DNA of 64,000 nt from Alkalimarinus alittae. GTDB lineage: Bacteria; Pseudomonadota; Gammaproteobacteria; Pseudomonadales; Oleiphilaceae. The stretch spans positions 1,092,001 through 1,156,000 of the forward strand of contig NZ_CP100390.1 in assembly GCF_026016465.1 (NCBI RefSeq), read 5' to 3'. The notes under the pieces are model-generated. The model searched no databases and was not told the DNA's origin. It was given only the letters and a program-made list of their open reading frames with translations. This document shows positions 36,526 through 43,037 of the stretch, piece after piece. The translations under genes were made by a program, and so were the position numbers. Within the stretch, counting starts at the first letter, position 1; every line of letters starts with the position of its first letter.

Positions 36526-36721
36526 AAGTGTCTCTTTTTGGCGTATGGCTGTGGCCGATGATTATACCAGAGTCGGCTAAAACAAAAGGTAAAAAATAGA
36601 AAAATTACGACGTTTACTTAGGGCATGTGAGTAGGAGGTATATTATAGGTTGTTTCCCTTATTATTTTTTTTTCATTAGCTCGTTATAGTGTTTTGTTAG
36701 ATTTGATATTTGGAGAGCGCA

Positions 36722-38077
36722 ATGCTCAAAATAAAAAACATACTTCTGTTGGCATTGCCGCTCGTTGTGGCTCAGCTCGCACAAGCATCTATGGGCTTTA
36801 TTGATACCATTCTTATGGGAATGCTCGGTGTCGAGATGTTGGCGGGTGGTGGTCTGGGGGCCGCAATATTTAGTTTTTGCTTTATCGTGTGTACCGGCGT
36901 GTTAGTCGCTTCTTCTAATATTATAGCTTACGCCGTAGGGAAGGATGACCACGGAGAGATACATCAAGCCTTACTATCATCAATGGTTATTGCCGTGGCG
37001 TTGGCGGTGCTTTGTGGTGTTGGCCTTTGGCATGTTGGAGGGCTGTTGGGGTATGTTGGCCAAAGCGAAAGCAGTATTGAAAATGCCGAGATTTATTTAC
37101 GCTCTGTAGTCTGGGCACTGTTACCTGGGCTTGGCTTTATGGCGCTCAGAAACTTTGCGTTAGGGATGGGGCGAACGGGGTCAATTCTTAAAATCACGTT
37201 AGCCGCCGCCATATGCAACTTTCCGATCAGTTACGCACTGATGAAAGGGCTTTGGATCTTACCTGAGTTAGGGTTAAGGGGGATCGGTTACGGAACTGTC
37301 ATTGTATCGTTTTTAATGTTCTTCGCGTTTGTGTGGGATATTTATAGATTACCTGCTTTAAAACCCTATCCATTTTGGTCGGGCTGGGGCCTTTTCAAAC
37401 TGCACTCAGTACTGGCGACGCTTCGTTTAGGTATTCCTATGGCTATTGCTTATGCGATGGAGGCTGGCTTGTTTACTGCTGCTGCCATTTTGGTCGGGAT
37501 TATAGGTGAAATCGAGTTAGCAGCGCATCAAATTGCCCTTCAATGTATCACCTTGTCGTTTATGATACCGGTCGGGTTATCTCAGGCTGTTTCCGTATTG
37601 GTCGGGCGTAGTTATGGTGCTAATAAACTAGATGATGTTGGTGGTTATGCCGCTACTGGGGTACTGGTAGGATTCGTCGGAAGCTCGATTGCGGCTTTTG
37701 TGTTTTGGTTTTTCCCCGAAGTGATCGTAAACCTGTTTACCCAAGCAAAAGATACACAAGAGATTGCCAGTGTTCAGCAGGTAGGCATTCAACTGTTATG
37801 GGTCGCCGCGTTGTTTCAACTGGTTGATGGTGTACAGGTCATTACCATGGGGTCCTTAAGAGGGATGAAGCTCGCATTAGCCCCTACGCTTATTACCATT
37901 TTAGGTTATTGGGGGATAGGCTTTCCAAGTGCTTACTTCTTAATGGATTATTGGGGCGTTCAAGGTGTTTGGGGAGGGCTTGGTATCGGTTTAGGTGTGA
38001 CGGCCATTATGTTGGTGGCACTCTTTATTTATCATCTTAATAATTTAAAAAAGAGGCAGGCGTTAGTGTTGAGTTAA
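36722..38077 (+). CDS. MATE family multidrug/toxin exporter
   Basis: A 451-residue, 12-helix antiporter of the MATE family (NorM/DinF-like). Features are PLVVAQLAQASMGFIDTILMG in the first helices and the paired repeat GIPMAIAYAMEAGLFTAAA in the second half. ATG 36722 has GGAGAG 5-10 bases upstream, and the frame to a TTG at 36710 includes that SD. It exports cationic compounds by Na+ or H+ exchange. No regulator is adjacent. It is divergent from dbpA and precedes the glucosylglycerate genes by 109 bases. Confidence 0.9.
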   Translation: MLKIKNILLLALPLVVAQLAQASMGFIDTILMGMLGVEMLAGGGLGAAIFSFCFIVCTGVLVASSNIIAYAVGKDDHGEIHQALLSSMVIAVALAVLCGVGLWHVGGLLGYVGQSESSIENAEIYLRSVVWALLPGLGFMALRNFALGMGRTGSILKITLAAAICNFPISYALMKGLWILPELGLRGIGYGTVIVSFLMFFAFVWDIYRLPALKPYPFWSGWGLFKLHSVLATLRLGIPMAIAYAMEAGLFTAAAILVGIIGEIELAAHQIALQCITLSFMIPVGLSQAVSVLVGRSYGANKLDDVGGYAATGVLVGFVGSSIAAFVFWFFPEVIVNLFTQAKDTQEIASVQQVGIQLLWVAALFQLVDGVQVITMGSLRGMKLALAPTLITILGYWGIGFPSAYFLMDYWGVQGVWGGLGIGLGVTAIMLVALFIYHLNNLKKRQALVLS

Positions 38078-38135
38078 TGTCGTGCTGAAGTAGTTCTTTT
38101 TTCCTTTTATCAATTCTGGCCAATTCTGTGCATAG

Positions 38136-38173
38136 TACCCTCTATAACTCAATTTTAGTGTTTATAGAGGGTA
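38136..38173. promoter_or_regulatory. Perfect 12-bp inverted repeat before the glucosylglycerate genes
   Basis: TACCCTCTATAA (38136-38147) and TTATAGAGGGTA (38162-38173) are perfectly complementary with a 14-base loop, 13 bases before the ATG at 38187. The only SD-like sequence (AGAGGG) is inside the right arm, so an RNA hairpin would hide it. It may be an operator for a dimeric repressor or a translational switch. It has no T run, so it is not a terminator for the MATE gene. Confidence 0.65.
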
Positions 38174-38186
38174 AGCGTGTTCCATT

Positions 38187-39926
38187 ATGGTGCATGAGAA
38201 GATACTTAGCGAAATCAATCAACAGCAGCTACCGAAGGGCTATATAAACGCGGTTGAGCGTTACTTAATACCGCTGGCAGAAAAAATAGCGGTATTAACA
38301 GCGCATAACAATGGTGCGCTGTTGGTCGGGGTGCAAGGGGGGCAAGGAACCGGAAAGTCAACGCTTGCCTTATTTACGTCTCTCGTTTTACAACATAGTC
38401 ATCACCTAAACACGGTTAGTCTTTCGCTGGATGATTTTTATCTAACCAAGCGTGAGCGAGATCGGCTTGCCGGTGATGTTCATCCTCTACTCAAAACACG
38501 GGGTGTGCCAGGCACCCATGATATCGAACTCGCATTACAAACCATTTCTAAATTAAAGGCTTTGAAAGATGGCGAACATGTTCTAGTTCCTCGCTTCGAT
38601 AAAGCGTCGGATGATAGAAAGCCTGAATCAGAGTGGGAAAGCATTAGCGGTAAGGTTGATGTGATTTTGTTTGAAGGTTGGTGTGTTGCTGCGCGCCCTG
38701 AAGATGACTTGTTGCTAGAAGACCCCATTAACAAATTTGAAACGGAACATGATGCGTTGGGCTTATGGCGAAACTGGGTCAATGAGCACTTAAAGTCAGA
38801 TTGCACATCACTGTTTGATCAGCTGGATTATTTAATCGTGCTTCAAGCCCCTTCCTTTGATGTGATCTATGAATGGCGGCTACTGCAAGAACATAAACTG
38901 AAGGCCAGAATCGATGGTGTTTCGGGTCATCACAGTGGGGTTATGGATGATGATCAAGTCGCTCACTTTATTCAGCACTATGAGCGTATTACACGAAACT
39001 GCTTAAGTACGCTACCAGCCCTTGCAGATTGCTTGTTTAAGCTCGATAAGAATCACACCATTTATGAAATGGTTGAGCCCAAAAAGAACCACTCTTTTAT
39101 TGTTGTTTCTGACTTAGACGGCACCTTGTTGGATCATTTTGATTACTCATTTTCTGCTGCTTTACCTGCACTTGCATCGCTTAAACAGCGAGATATTCCG
39201 CTAATTATCAATACCAGTAAAACGTATACAGAGGTCGAGGGAATTAAGACCGAATTGGCTGTAGAAACGCCTTGTATTGTAGAAAATGGCTCAGCGGTCT
39301 ATCTACCAAAATCAACTTGGCCAACGCTAGGGGGGCAACTCTCAGACGACCTATTATTGATAGGCGATCAATACGTCAAAATATTGGGTGAGCCTAGAGC
39401 CAAAATACTAACCATACTGCAGCGTATAAAACATCAGAATGACTACTTATTTGAAGGGTTTTCTGACTTTACCCCTGAGGCGTTAGCCATGCTAACTGGA
39501 CTTTCACAAGAATGTGCTATTCAGGCGCTAAACAGGCACTTTTCCGAACCTATTCTTTGGCATGACAGCGAAGAACGTTATCTAGATTTTGTCACTGAGG
39601 TGGAACGAAATGGTCTGATGCTGTTGCGTGGAGGTCGATTTATTCATGTGCTTGGGCGTTGCGATAAAGGTCAGTCGCTCGCGTGGTTGAAGGACTTATA
39701 TAGCGAAAAGAGTGGCCGAAATACCGAGCCTCGCTTGGTGGCACTGGGCGATAGTCAAAATGATAGTGCCATGTTGGCGTTAGCTGATATTGCCGTGGTC
39801 GTTAAATCACCCGTGCATGAGTATCCAGAGGTTAATCAGCCTAAGGGTGAAGTACTTTATTCGACTCAAGAAGGCCCTAAAGGGTGGAATGAAGAGGTAC
39901 TGAAAATTATTGAGCGTGCTAGTTAG
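38187..39926 (+). CDS. Fused D-glycerate 3-kinase-like / HAD sugar-phosphoglycerate phosphatase
   Basis: 579 residues in two enzymes. Residues 1-295 form a P-loop kinase of the glycerate kinase (GLYK/YGR205W) type: Walker A GGQGTGKST at 51-59, LSLDDFYLTKRERDRLAGDV at 79-98 and KTRGVPGTHD. Residues 303-579 are a HAD-IIB phosphatase of the mannosyl/glucosyl-3-phosphoglycerate phosphatase type: DLDGT with Asp309/Asp311, the NTSKTYTEVEGI motif and GDSQND near residue 530. The kinase half should turn glycerate into 3-phosphoglycerate; the phosphatase half should turn glucosyl-3-phosphoglycerate into glucosylglycerate. Start ATG 38187 has a poor SD inside a hairpin. Substrates are inferred from the neighbours. 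Confidence 0.85.
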   Translation: MVHEKILSEINQQQLPKGYINAVERYLIPLAEKIAVLTAHNNGALLVGVQGGQGTGKSTLALFTSLVLQHSHHLNTVSLSLDDFYLTKRERDRLAGDVHPLLKTRGVPGTHDIELALQTISKLKALKDGEHVLVPRFDKASDDRKPESEWESISGKVDVILFEGWCVAARPEDDLLLEDPINKFETEHDALGLWRNWVNEHLKSDCTSLFDQLDYLIVLQAPSFDVIYEWRLLQEHKLKARIDGVSGHHSGVMDDDQVAHFIQHYERITRNCLSTLPALADCLFKLDKNHTIYEMVEPKKNHSFIVVSDLDGTLLDHFDYSFSAALPALASLKQRDIPLIINTSKTYTEVEGIKTELAVETPCIVENGSAVYLPKSTWPTLGGQLSDDLLLIGDQYVKILGEPRAKILTILQRIKHQNDYLFEGFSDFTPEALAMLTGLSQECAIQALNRHFSEPILWHDSEERYLDFVTEVERNGLMLLRGGRFIHVLGRCDKGQSLAWLKDLYSEKSGRNTEPRLVALGDSQNDSAMLALADIAVVVKSPVHEYPEVNQPKGEVLYSTQEGPKGWNEEVLKIIERAS

Positions 39927-39985
39927 CGCGACAACTTAAGTGTAAAGCCAAAAGATTAAGTCAAAATAATATGGAGTAACGAGTT

Positions 39986-41212
39986 ATGGGCGATTTTTAT
40001 CAGAATGGGATTATTACGACACTTCATAATTTATCGAGACGACCCGTAGAGGCATTAGAAGAAGAGCTACATCGCTTTTCAAAAACACGCCCTATGTCAC
40101 TTATACTGCCTTCTCTATATTCTGAGTTGCAGGGTGAGGCGTTGCCCAATATTGTGAACGAATTACGCGGAGCAACCTATCTAAACGAAATCGTCATTGG
40201 GCTTGATAGAGCGTCTGAAGATGAGTATCGAAAAGCACTCAAGTTTTTTTCTGCTCTTCCTCAGCATCATCGGGTTCTCTGGAATGAAGGGCCAAGGCTT
40301 CAGGCCATTGATAAAAAATTGCAAAAAGAAGGTCTTGCTCCCTTAGAGCTGGGGAAAGGGAGAAATGTATGGTATTGCATGGGCTACACGCTAGCCTCTG
40401 GCCGCGCTCAGTCTGTGGCGTTACATGACTGTGATATCGTTACCTATGAGCGAGGTTTATTAGCTCGTCTTATTTATCCCGTTGCAAACCCCAATTTCAA
40501 CTATGAATTTTGTAAAGGGTACTATGCAAGAGTTGCAAATGGCCAAATAAACGGCAGGGTAAGCAGGTTGTTAGTGACACCGTTAATTAGAGCGTTGAAA
40601 AAAGTATTTGGCTCTATGGACTATTTAGAGTACCTAGATAGCTATCGGTACCCCCTTGCAGGTGAATTTTCGTTCAGGTTAGATGTATTGAATGATATTC
40701 GAATACCGAGCGACTGGGGGCTTGAAATAGGTGTGTTGTCAGAAGTGAAGCGCAATTATGCCACCAACAGACTTTGCCAAGTCGATATCGCTGACGTTTA
40801 TGATCATAAACATCAAAACCTATCGGAAGGGGATGATAGCGGCGGCTTGTCAAAAATGTCGATTGATATATCGAAAGCGCTATTTAGAAAGCTGGCGACC
40901 AATGGTGTGGTATTTAATGCAGAAACCTTTAGAACCATTAAAGCATCATACTTCCGGATAGCGTTGGACTTTGTCGAAACCTACCGTAACGATGCCATCA
41001 TTAATGGGCTTAATTTCGATATTCACTCTGAAGAAAAAGCAGTTGAATTGTTTACTCAGAACATTGTTAAAGCAGGTAATCAGTTTTTGGAGCGCCCAAT
41101 GGAAAAACCCTTTATACCCAGTTGGAATAGGGTAGTGAGCGCAATACCTGATATTTTTGAGCAAATAAAAACGGCTGTCGAGCTAGATCACGAGGAGTTC
41201 TCTCAGTCATAG
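39986..41212 (+). CDS. Glucosyl-3-phosphoglycerate synthase (GT81-like)
   Basis: A 408-residue retaining GT-A glycosyltransferase resembling bacterial GpgS. It would transfer glucose from an NDP-glucose donor to 3-phosphoglycerate. The metal-binding DxD is HDCDIV at Asp148-Asp150. Acceptor and donor segments are GLDRASEDEYRKA, PLELGKGRNVWYCMGYTLA and SYRYPLAGEFSF. The ATG has GGAGTAACG upstream. It lies 59 bases after the kinase-phosphatase and 82 before the phosphorylase. A mannosyl-transferring MPG synthase is the alternative; the GWGLEIG-like DWGLEIGVL segment favours the GT81/GpgS group. Confidence 0.83.
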   Translation: MGDFYQNGIITTLHNLSRRPVEALEEELHRFSKTRPMSLILPSLYSELQGEALPNIVNELRGATYLNEIVIGLDRASEDEYRKALKFFSALPQHHRVLWNEGPRLQAIDKKLQKEGLAPLELGKGRNVWYCMGYTLASGRAQSVALHDCDIVTYERGLLARLIYPVANPNFNYEFCKGYYARVANGQINGRVSRLLVTPLIRALKKVFGSMDYLEYLDSYRYPLAGEFSFRLDVLNDIRIPSDWGLEIGVLSEVKRNYATNRLCQVDIADVYDHKHQNLSEGDDSGGLSKMSIDISKALFRKLATNGVVFNAETFRTIKASYFRIALDFVETYRNDAIINGLNFDIHSEEKAVELFTQNIVKAGNQFLERPMEKPFIPSWNRVVSAIPDIFEQIKTAVELDHEEFSQS

Positions 41213-41236
41213 TTCATACGAGTGCAGTAGGACTGT

Positions 41237-41265
41237 ATTGATTAAATCCGCATTGATTAAGTCCG
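41237..41265. repeat. Tandem 15-base duplication between gpgS-like gene and phosphorylase
   Basis: ATTGATTAAATCCG (41237-41250) and ATTGATTAAGTCCG (41252-41265) are adjacent near-identical units in the 82-base spacer. Confidence 0.6.
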
Positions 41266-41294
41266 TAGCAATTTAGTCTAACTAGGTATCGGTT

Positions 41295-43037
41295 ATGATG
41301 GAAGAGTTAAGGTTTAGAGTCATTTCTCACCTCGCTGTCCTTTATCCAGAGCAGTCAGAGAAAACGAGAAATATATTAGCCGATACGCTTATTCAGGCAA
41401 TGGGTATCGAGGATACGGTTACGTCGCTAGCACAGTATGAAAATCACTGGGACCAACATGATGTGTATGTGATCACCTATGGCGATACCTTTCTGGCCCC
41501 AGGACAGAAGCCACTAAGCGGCCTGCATCAGTTTTTGATTAAACACCTAATGGGTACGATCAATAGTGTTCACATCCTGCCGTTTTTCCCTTATAGCTCA
41601 GATGATGGTTTTTCTGTTATTGATTATATGGCGGTTAATAAGGCACTGGGGGAATGGCGTGATATTAATTTAATTGCTAATGATTTTAAACTCATGGCTG
41701 ACGTGGTGATTAATCACTGTTCTGCAGAAAGTCGCTGGTTTAAAAACTATCTCAAAGGACGTGAGCCTGGTCTAGGTTATTTTGTTGAAGCGTCCCCCTC
41801 CGATGATCTTTCTCACGTCGTTCGACCAAGGACATCACCGCTATTAAAGAAGGTGATTACTAAAGAGGGTGAAAAACATATCTGGTGCACATTTAGTCAC
41901 GATCAAGTGGATTTAAATTTTGCTAATCCGAAGGTGCTGTTAGAGTTCGTTAAAATTATTAAAGGGTATCTTGATAACGGTATAGCGGTTTTTCGTTTAG
42001 ATGCCGTCGCGTTTATATGGAAAGTGGTGGGTAGCACGAGTCTTAATTTACCAGAAACCCATGAAATTGTGCGCTTATTAAGAACGCTTATTGAAGCCCG
42101 AAAAAGTGATGCGGTGATTATTACAGAAACTAATATACCTAATCGAGAAAACTTATCTTATTTTGGCAACGCTAACGAGGCGCATGTTGTTTATAACTTT
42201 TCATTGCCTCCTTTACTGATTAATACCTTGGTGACTGGCAGTTCCCATTATTTGAAAAATTGGTTAATGAGTATGCCGCCTGCACAAATGGGGACTACAT
42301 ACTTTAACTTTATAGCTTCACATGACGGTATAGGGCTTCGACCGGCAGAAGGGTTGCTGTCTGATGAGGAAATTAAATTGTTAATGGATACCATGATTAC
42401 CCATGGTGGAGAAGTCTCTTGGCGAGCTCTTGATAGTGGAGAAAATAAGCCTTATGAAGTCAATATCAGCCTGTTTGATGCATTAAAAGGCACTGTCAAT
42501 GGGAAGGATCAATGGCAGATTGAGCGATTTGTGTGCGCGCATGCGGTGATGTTGGCACTGGAGGGTATTCCAGCCATCTATATTCATAGCCTCTTGGCTA
42601 CTGGGAATGACTATGAAGGTGTCAAACGAACCGGGCACAAGCGCTCTATTAACCGATATCAATGGGACTATACAGAGCTTGAAAGAGCCCTAAACAGCCC
42701 CGAGTCCCGACATCATTTAGTTTTTAATAGACTAAAAAAGTTGATCGATATTAGAGTTAAGCAGCCTGCCTTTCACCCAAATGCGATTCAATATACGCTG
42801 CATTTAGGAGATGAAGTGTTTGCATTCTGGCGTCAGAGTTTGAGACGGGACCAGAGTGTTTTTTCGATTAACAACATTACTGACCAACCCCAAGTTATCC
42901 CTTTAACGGCTGTTAATCTTGTAGGGACTGATGAGTGGGTCGATCTCATCACTGGTGAGCGTTATCAAGACTTACATGGCACTTTGGTATTGGCACCTTA
43001 TCAATCGGTTTGGTTGACTAATATGATTGGGGGATAA
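41295..43037 (+). CDS. GH13_18 sugar phosphorylase, probable glucosylglycerate phosphorylase
   Basis: 580 residues of the sucrose-phosphorylase subfamily of GH13. The nucleophile is Asp236 (FRLDAVAF), the acid/base Glu278 (ITETNIP) and the transition-state stabiliser Asp344 (ASHDGIG). The family covers sucrose, sucrose-6-phosphate and glucosylglycerate phosphorylases, which cleave the glucoside with phosphate to glucose-1-phosphate. Beside glucosylglycerate synthesis genes and a glycerate kinase, glucosylglycerate is the most likely substrate, giving glucose-1-P and glycerate. Sucrose remains the alternative, but no sucrose gene is nearby. The start is ATG 41295 or 41298. Confidence 0.85.

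Follow-up and report, generated by a model that had tools for sequence, protein, structure and literature searches.

A glycerate kinase-phosphatase fusion in a probable glucosylglycerate operon of Alkalimarinus alittae

Introduction

Why should a predicted glycerate kinase, which would act in salvage, share one polypeptide with a predicted sugar-phosphoglycerate phosphatase, which would finish a biosynthesis? The question is raised by a three-gene operon in a 64,000-nucleotide (nt) stretch of the gammaproteobacterium Alkalimarinus alittae (Oleiphilaceae; RefSeq assembly GCF_026016465.1, contig NZ_CP100390.1, positions 1,092,001 to 1,156,000, forward strand), the whole of which is referred to here as the window. 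A preliminary description, made from the DNA letters and their open reading frames (ORFs), read the operon as a self-contained glucosylglycerate cycle and supposed that the fusion would need a switch between its halves. In our view the three genes very probably make and mobilise the compatible solute 2-O-alpha-D-glucosyl-D-glycerate. The pathway is already known and the new part is the joining of kinase and phosphatase, of which the literature surveyed held no mention, in a search that was not aimed at fusions and did not take in the 2017 description of the phosphorylase. We see in the fusion no unique design but a variant, scattered in occurrence, of an operon that is itself widespread.

Operon structure and predicted enzymes

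The preliminary description placed three adjacent genes within positions 38136-43037, and three ORFs are indeed present there on the + strand, the first ATG of the operon lying 51 nt downstream of the start given at 38136. The fusion and GpgS genes are 59 nt apart, the GpgS and phosphorylase genes 82 nt.

38187 to 39926 (stop included), + strand: fused kinase-phosphatase gene, 579 amino acids (aa), from ORF, domains and model
38187 to 39074, + strand: kinase half, GLYK type, aa 1-296 (GTGKST 54-59, DDFYL 82-86, RFDK 136-139, EGW 163-165)
39081 to 39923, + strand: phosphatase half, HAD-IIB MPGP type, aa 299-579 (DLDGTL 309-314, GDSQND 521-526)
39986 to 41212, + strand: glucosyl-3-phosphoglycerate synthase type (GpgS), 408 aa, from HDCD motif and homology
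41295 to 43037, + strand: glucosylglycerate phosphorylase type (GH13_18), 580 aa (D236, E278, D344; TETN 277-280; loop-A Glu388)

The best PDB matches of the kinase half are the D-glycerate 3-kinases 6ckg (E 1.6e-24) and 7xpc (E 2.2e-22), and it has the P-loop kinase character, GLYK fold and common motifs of that enzyme. The phosphatase half scores 222 bits over residues 305-574 against TIGR01486 (HAD-IIB MPGP; cut-off 164.75) and also matches MpgP/YedP structures. An AlphaFold2 model of the whole fusion, built from an alignment of 48 window and locus proteins, has a mean predicted local distance difference test (pLDDT) of 95.3 and a predicted template modelling score (pTM) of 0.70, and its best Foldseek matches, with template modelling (TM) scores taken by target length, include MpgP 3zty (0.90) and GLYK 6ckg (0.76), the second GLYK structure 7xpc giving 0.72. 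Thus the earlier reading of a GLYK-type kinase joined to a HAD-IIB phosphatase stands on structural matches, family score and fold. The catalytic motifs of both halves are kept in 10 aligned fused proteins, in which most kinase motif residues are invariant. From the adjoining GpgS gene we infer that the phosphatase half acts on glucosyl-3-phosphoglycerate (GpgP).

The 408 aa protein matches NCBIfam GpgS_Meth (NF040724) over almost its full length (E 2.7e-111, 372.2 bits) and is of GpgS type by homology, not a member of NF040724; a Pfam search with it gave no match. The DCD noted in the preliminary description, which called the protein a GT81-like synthase, lies at 148-150, and HDCD is invariant among 7 aligned proteins. 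We take the protein to belong to GT81 and its DxD to bind metal.

In the phosphorylase (PF00128, 89.5 bits) the GH13 catalytic Asp/Glu/Asp are D236, E278 and D344, exactly the residues first named. According to Franceus and Desmet (PMC7178133) a glucosylglycerate phosphorylase is marked by (T/S)ETN around the acid/base Glu together with a Glu in loop A. The window enzyme carries TETN at 277-280 and a loop-A PYE ending in E388, and both marks are present in 79/79 aligned operon phosphorylases, the window's among them (81 operon proteins minus two truncated ones). The loop-A motifs of other specificities, N(L/V)D(I/L/V)YQ, GFDVHQ, KXXYYQ and VGAIYQ, are absent from it. These signature motifs fit a glucosylglycerate phosphorylase, as which we would class it. 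Of 58 related genomes, the 41 with GpgS are exactly those with the phosphorylase (counted at E <1e-100), which excludes a chance association. Motifs and co-occurrence together support the proposed synthesis and phosphorolytic recycling of glucosylglycerate.

From gene order, domains, catalytic motifs and the scattered recurrence described below, all directly seen, we infer every activity, substrate and product of the following scheme. In synthesis GpgS would couple nucleoside diphosphate glucose (NDP-glucose) with 3-phosphoglycerate, and the phosphatase half would strip the phosphate. In mobilisation the GH13_18 enzyme would use phosphate to split glucosylglycerate into glucose-1-phosphate and D-glycerate, which the kinase half would phosphorylate. 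Given that the Arabidopsis glycerate kinase yields 3-phosphoglycerate (PMC4378991), the same product, transferred by analogy, is most likely here; its carbon would re-enter glycolysis or gluconeogenesis and could supply GpgS again. Were all steps to run simultaneously each turn of the loop would cost an ATP and an NDP-glucose, and control is therefore to be expected, most simply through transcription and metabolite levels. As a gene set, then, the closed loop of the preliminary description holds; as a novelty it does not, since such recycling is already published (PMC7178133, PMC11631117).

Replacement of the predicted glycerate kinase

The strongest new support for a glycerate-kinase role of the N-terminal half, as first proposed, comes from genomes in which the GLYK-type kinase is missing. 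Among 87 phosphorylase-bearing genomes, PF02595 or PF13660, two unrelated glycerate kinase families, is found in 41 of the 43 that lack a GLYK-type kinase and in 3 of the 44 that have one; 23 genomes hold PF02595, and 18 PF13660, without the GLYK-type kinase. The pattern holds in each of the two samples that make up the 87. In the relatives it is 11/11 phosphorylase positives without the GLYK-type kinase against 3/30 with it (p 1e-7), the 11, from 6 genera, having PF02595 in 10 cases and PF13660 in 1. In a class sample of 369 genomes (46 positives, the window's own excluded) it is 30/32 against 0/14 (p 5e-10), the 32 comprising 13 with PF02595, 17 with PF13660 and 2 with neither; both p values are overstated, as the genomes share ancestry. 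In this class sample the phosphorylase was counted at E <1e-100 alone, irrespective of motifs, the GLYK-type kinase at E 1e-30, and the PF13660 search covered the 46 positives only. Since its distribution complements that of unrelated glycerate kinase families, the kinase half gains support as a glycerate kinase. Neither PF02595 nor PF13660 is matched in the window genome, so that of the three families only that of the kinase half is represented there.

In four genomes (L157-L160) a PF02595 gene adjoins the phosphatase, GpgS and phosphorylase genes. It lies immediately 5' of phosphatase and GpgS on the same strand in L157 and L158, where the phosphorylase is on the opposite strand; it is the last of four genes on one strand in L159; and it faces the phosphorylase from the opposite strand in L160. 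In L157 (593-2593; class genome G109) PF02595 and GalU form one 666-aa frame, above the GalU equivalog cut-off. This predicted protein, seen in a single genome, could return both phosphorolysis products toward GpgS. Genome G252 was read by eye in two respects: its 676-aa PF02595 frame was set aside as an apparent upstream frame extension with no GalU behind, and its 721-aa phosphorylase (L162:5995-8160) extends into an apparent mannose-6-phosphate isomerase-type cupin domain.

The preliminary description had glycerate returning as 3-phosphoglycerate, the acceptor of the synthase. As a requirement this is not supported, in view of the 23 PF02595 and 18 PF13660 genomes that lack the GLYK-type kinase. 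PF13660 enzymes make 2-phosphoglycerate, and PF02595 presumably includes E. coli GarK and GlxK. Both of these E. coli glycerate kinases likewise give 2-phosphoglycerate in vivo (PMC4378991). The common denominator may thus be salvage into lower glycolysis rather than direct re-feeding of GpgS, and because other families replace GLYK in 41/87 genomes it is salvage, not direct closure on GpgS, that we would regard as selected.

Distribution and origin of the fusion

The genome search for the same fusion suggested in the preliminary description finds it in scattered lineages, as one form of an operon that runs kinase-phosphatase-GpgS-phosphorylase. Among the 30 related genomes with both phosphorylase and kinase, labelled by hand from gene positions, kinase and phosphatase are fused in 8 and adjacent in 17, the kinase lying elsewhere in 5. 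A wider view is given by 80 named loci, the best of 584 confirmed, found with GpgS as query. The fused form is seen in two, Glaciecola sp. HTCC2999 and an Oleiphilaceae bin whose stretch is that of congener G003. Kinase and phosphatase are separate neighbours in 52 loci, the phosphatase stands alone beside GpgS in 24, and 2 end at a contig edge. All 80 hold GpgS, phosphatase and at least a partial phosphorylase. The class sample adds two stop-free fusions, G217 and G196, and a phylum sample of 398 genomes adds no fusion besides those of the window's genome and G196; a scan of genome contigs with the fusion protein as the only query found no relative. Two apparent fusions were rejected, that of G211 being two ORFs parted by a TGA and that of G589 reading through three stops. 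The window's genus has the fused form in 4 of 5 genomes (G000-G003) and the split form in G004, and the fusion is also present in G031.

In a tree of 83 of 93 loci with both domains (a quick method, which flagged two branches as long and ten rows as odd in composition) the fused label needs 7 changes, at least 4 of them forced by well-supported branches, and a single clade of all fused proteins is rejected by the approximately unbiased (AU) test (p 3e-6). Such a tree cannot separate gains from losses. Several fusions nevertheless seem likelier than one early fusion with later splits, since kinase and phosphatase are more often encoded by separate genes. The congener G004 (L017), with separate kinase and phosphatase, groups with Oleispira and not with its own genus (L002-L005), a placement that suggests the operon has been exchanged horizontally.

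The fusion would most likely have originated by in-frame joining of neighbouring, often overlapping genes, whether repeatedly or once with later splits. Whether the joining means anything is evenly balanced in our estimate: co-translated neighbours may simply have been fused by small mutations, their halves working as if separate. The gene layout favours this, as in the 52 separate-gene loci (ORFs called mechanically) kinase and phosphatase overlap by 1 base in 19 and are 2 nt apart in 6; fused and split forms coexist in one genus, and the two halves would catalyse steps that are not consecutive. Against an accident without consequence stand the scatter of the fused state over the tree and its retention in G031 and in most genomes of the genus to which the window belongs.

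The supposed need for a switch between the halves does not follow, because separate genes in one operon, as in the 52 loci, face the same problem; moreover the halves are predicted to take different substrates. A domain scan of the fusion found two domains only and no third. In the model 7 residues separate the strand at 292-296 from that at 304-308, a linker too short, as we read it, to house a regulatory domain, and no inter-half switch is visible.

Upstream region and regulation

38116 to 38137, + strand: conserved promoter-like block CTGGCCAATTCTGTGCATAGTA, kept in five genomes whose upstream sequence has otherwise diverged
36710 to 38077, + strand: MATE-family transporter gene 5' of the operon, probably outside the unit

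In the 17-nt core of the block (38116-38132) 15 of 17 columns are identical across these genomes; elsewhere in the aligned upstream sequence the figure is 22 of 125. Its GG-N10-GC spacing and conservation suggested a sigma54 promoter, and the window genome encodes RpoN. That reading was not supported: the block matches 9/13 of the sigma54 consensus, scores -1.8 (rank 596 of 127968 17-mers) on a weight matrix derived from 27 relatives' sites and lacks -24/-12 elements like TGGCAC-N5-TTGC. Between block and start codon lies an inverted repeat, ACCCTCTATAA...TTATAGAGGGT (window 38137-38172); in alignments by eye its arms covary in L003 (CTTTAT/ATAAAG), one arm has a single change in L004, and it is not apparent in L005 or L006. 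Further upstream, ORFs of similar length (458 and 457 aa) hold the position of the MATE gene in L003 and L004, and MATE-related ORFs are present in 17 of 81 loci, mostly at other places. The window genome is close to the uncultured Oleiphilaceae bin L061 (GpgS identity 97%).

Many relatives do carry sigma54-like sites upstream of the operon. In the 76 named loci whose upstream sequence was long enough, scanned from 300 nt before the first operon gene to 30 nt inside it, we find a site matching at least 10/13 of the consensus in 40, compared with 54 of 1006 other ORFs there and with 2/76 reversed and 1/76 reverse-complemented upstream regions; at 11/13 or better the figures are 27/76 loci and 14/1006 ORFs. 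By genus-level unit sites occur in 26/40, with none in the 14 Alteromonas loci. Examples among L061-L140 are L067, L069, L082, L091, L132, L134, L136 and L138.

NtrC-like dyads (TGCACYA-N3-TRGTGCA, at least 12/14, within 400 nt upstream) are present in 13 of 76 loci, here 75 named loci and the window, compared with about 1% of random stretches. A spacer of 3 nt is usual for NtrC; among spacers of 1-7 nt an excess at 12/14 appeared with 3 alone, so the choice is partly post hoc, and a 4-nt spacer gave no clear excess. Only 4 of the 13 (L074, L098, L106, L108) have the dyad upstream of the sigma54-like site, and the arrangement typical of enhancers therefore does not prevail; the dyad lies downstream in 7 (L077, L078, L107, L113, L114, L116, L136), and 2 (L127, L129) have no sigma54-like site. 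The window's own upstream region has no such dyad (best 9/14). Among the papers viewed none linked glucosylglycerate to sigma54 or NtrC in gammaproteobacteria, its sole mention in the text available of PMC3870243 being the title of a reference.

It is conceivable, though we lean clearly against it, that these features add up to a true substrate cycle in marine gammaproteobacteria, encoded by a single operon and controlled in many lineages by sigma54 and perhaps NtrC. Glycerate would then return to the synthase via the kinase half and glucose-1-phosphate via GalU, and the scattered kinase-phosphatase fusions would reflect selection that holds the finishing step and the salvage step in a fixed ratio or in contact.

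Alternative explanations

The loop might chiefly salvage imported glucosylglycerate and not the cell's own pool. From transcriptome data it has been suggested that Prochlorococcus may import glucosylglycerate released by Alteromonas (PMC11631117). We consider this improbable for the present operon, as GpgS and phosphatase accompany the phosphorylase in every named locus, albeit in loci found via GpgS, and beyond the four operon genes the commonest neighbouring families are seen in 20 of 81 loci and none in more.

Several observations weigh against the proposed pathway. The yeast homologue of the kinase half, 1odf, has no named function. The top-scoring models of the phosphatase half are mannosyl-3-phosphoglycerate phosphatases, and its score falls below the cut-off of the best-fitting equivalog, NF001218 (297.6 against 362 bits). 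The GpgS-type protein lies under the NF040724 equivalog cut-off of 700. Two phosphorylase-positive genomes of the class sample, G065 (75% complete) and G329 (98%), lack all three kinase families, and the GLYK-type kinase is present in 7 of 17 related and 26 of 322 class genomes without the phosphorylase. The GLYK-type family must therefore have other uses and, with PF02595 in 45 of the same 322, neither family is confined to the pathway.

This last distribution, together with weaker matches of the kinase half to uridine and pantothenate kinases, could mean that the kinase acts on another small hydroxy acid or sugar, leaving the loop unclosed by the fusion protein. We hold that to be very unlikely, given that its nearest solved structures are D-glycerate 3-kinases, that its distribution is complementary to two unrelated glycerate kinase families and that PF02595 adjoins the operon genes in four genomes. 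That the solute is mannosylglycerate, as the phosphatase models would have it, or that the phosphorylase acts on sucrose, sucrose phosphate or glucosylglycerol, as its top PDB matches (sucrose and glucosylglycerol phosphorylases) and its NCBIfam label sucrose_gtfA (TIGR03852, 197.4 bits, below the equivalog cut-off of 334.4) might suggest, is scarcely credible: the synthase is of GpgS type, and TETN with the loop-A Glu, in an enzyme without the loop-A motifs quoted for other specificities, leads us to reject the sucrose and glucosylglycerol enzymes.

Comparison with known systems

The favoured reading, an operon for making and mobilising glucosylglycerate, bears on a gap in the literature, as the exact metabolic function of glucosylglycerate phosphorylase had no experimental confirmation as of 2020 (PMC7178133). 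That three unrelated glycerate kinase families are distributed in a complementary way among phosphorylase-bearing genomes argues strongly, on genomic grounds, for glycerate salvage after phosphorolysis, and the replacement pattern points to genes with which salvage could be tested. The kinase-phosphatase and kinase-GalU fusions are ready candidates for bifunctional enzymes, and the sigma54-like promoters of relatives, if functional, could make a solute that contains no nitrogen respond to the nitrogen status of gammaproteobacteria.

Genes for glucosylglycerate phosphorylase (GGaP, EC 2.4.1.352) cluster with those for glycerate kinase, GpgS or GpgP, as reviewed by Franceus and Desmet (PMC7178133), and these clusters share the four activities, the neighbourhood and the phosphorylase motifs of the window operon. 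The passages of that review on the clusters mention no fusion, whereas the window has kinase and phosphatase in one polypeptide. An operon of the cyanobacterium Prochlorococcus is drawn with glucosylglycerate recycled to glucose-1-phosphate and 3-phosphoglycerate (PMC11631117), a route like that proposed here; as described in the relevant part of that study it has a putative transporter and no fusion is mentioned, whereas no common transporter was found in the present loci. In Marinobacter a fused phosphatase, GgpPS, likewise sits in a glycoside-osmolyte locus with an adjoining phosphorylase, that of glucosylglycerol (PMC10873239), and the bifunctional mannosyl-3-phosphoglycerate synthase/phosphatase (NF011072) likewise has an MPGP-type phosphatase as one half. 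The Marinobacter system, however, serves glucosylglycerol and joins its phosphatase to the synthase, and NF011072, by its name, joins the phosphatase to the preceding biosynthetic enzyme; in the predicted glucosylglycerate system of the window the partner of the phosphatase is the salvage kinase.

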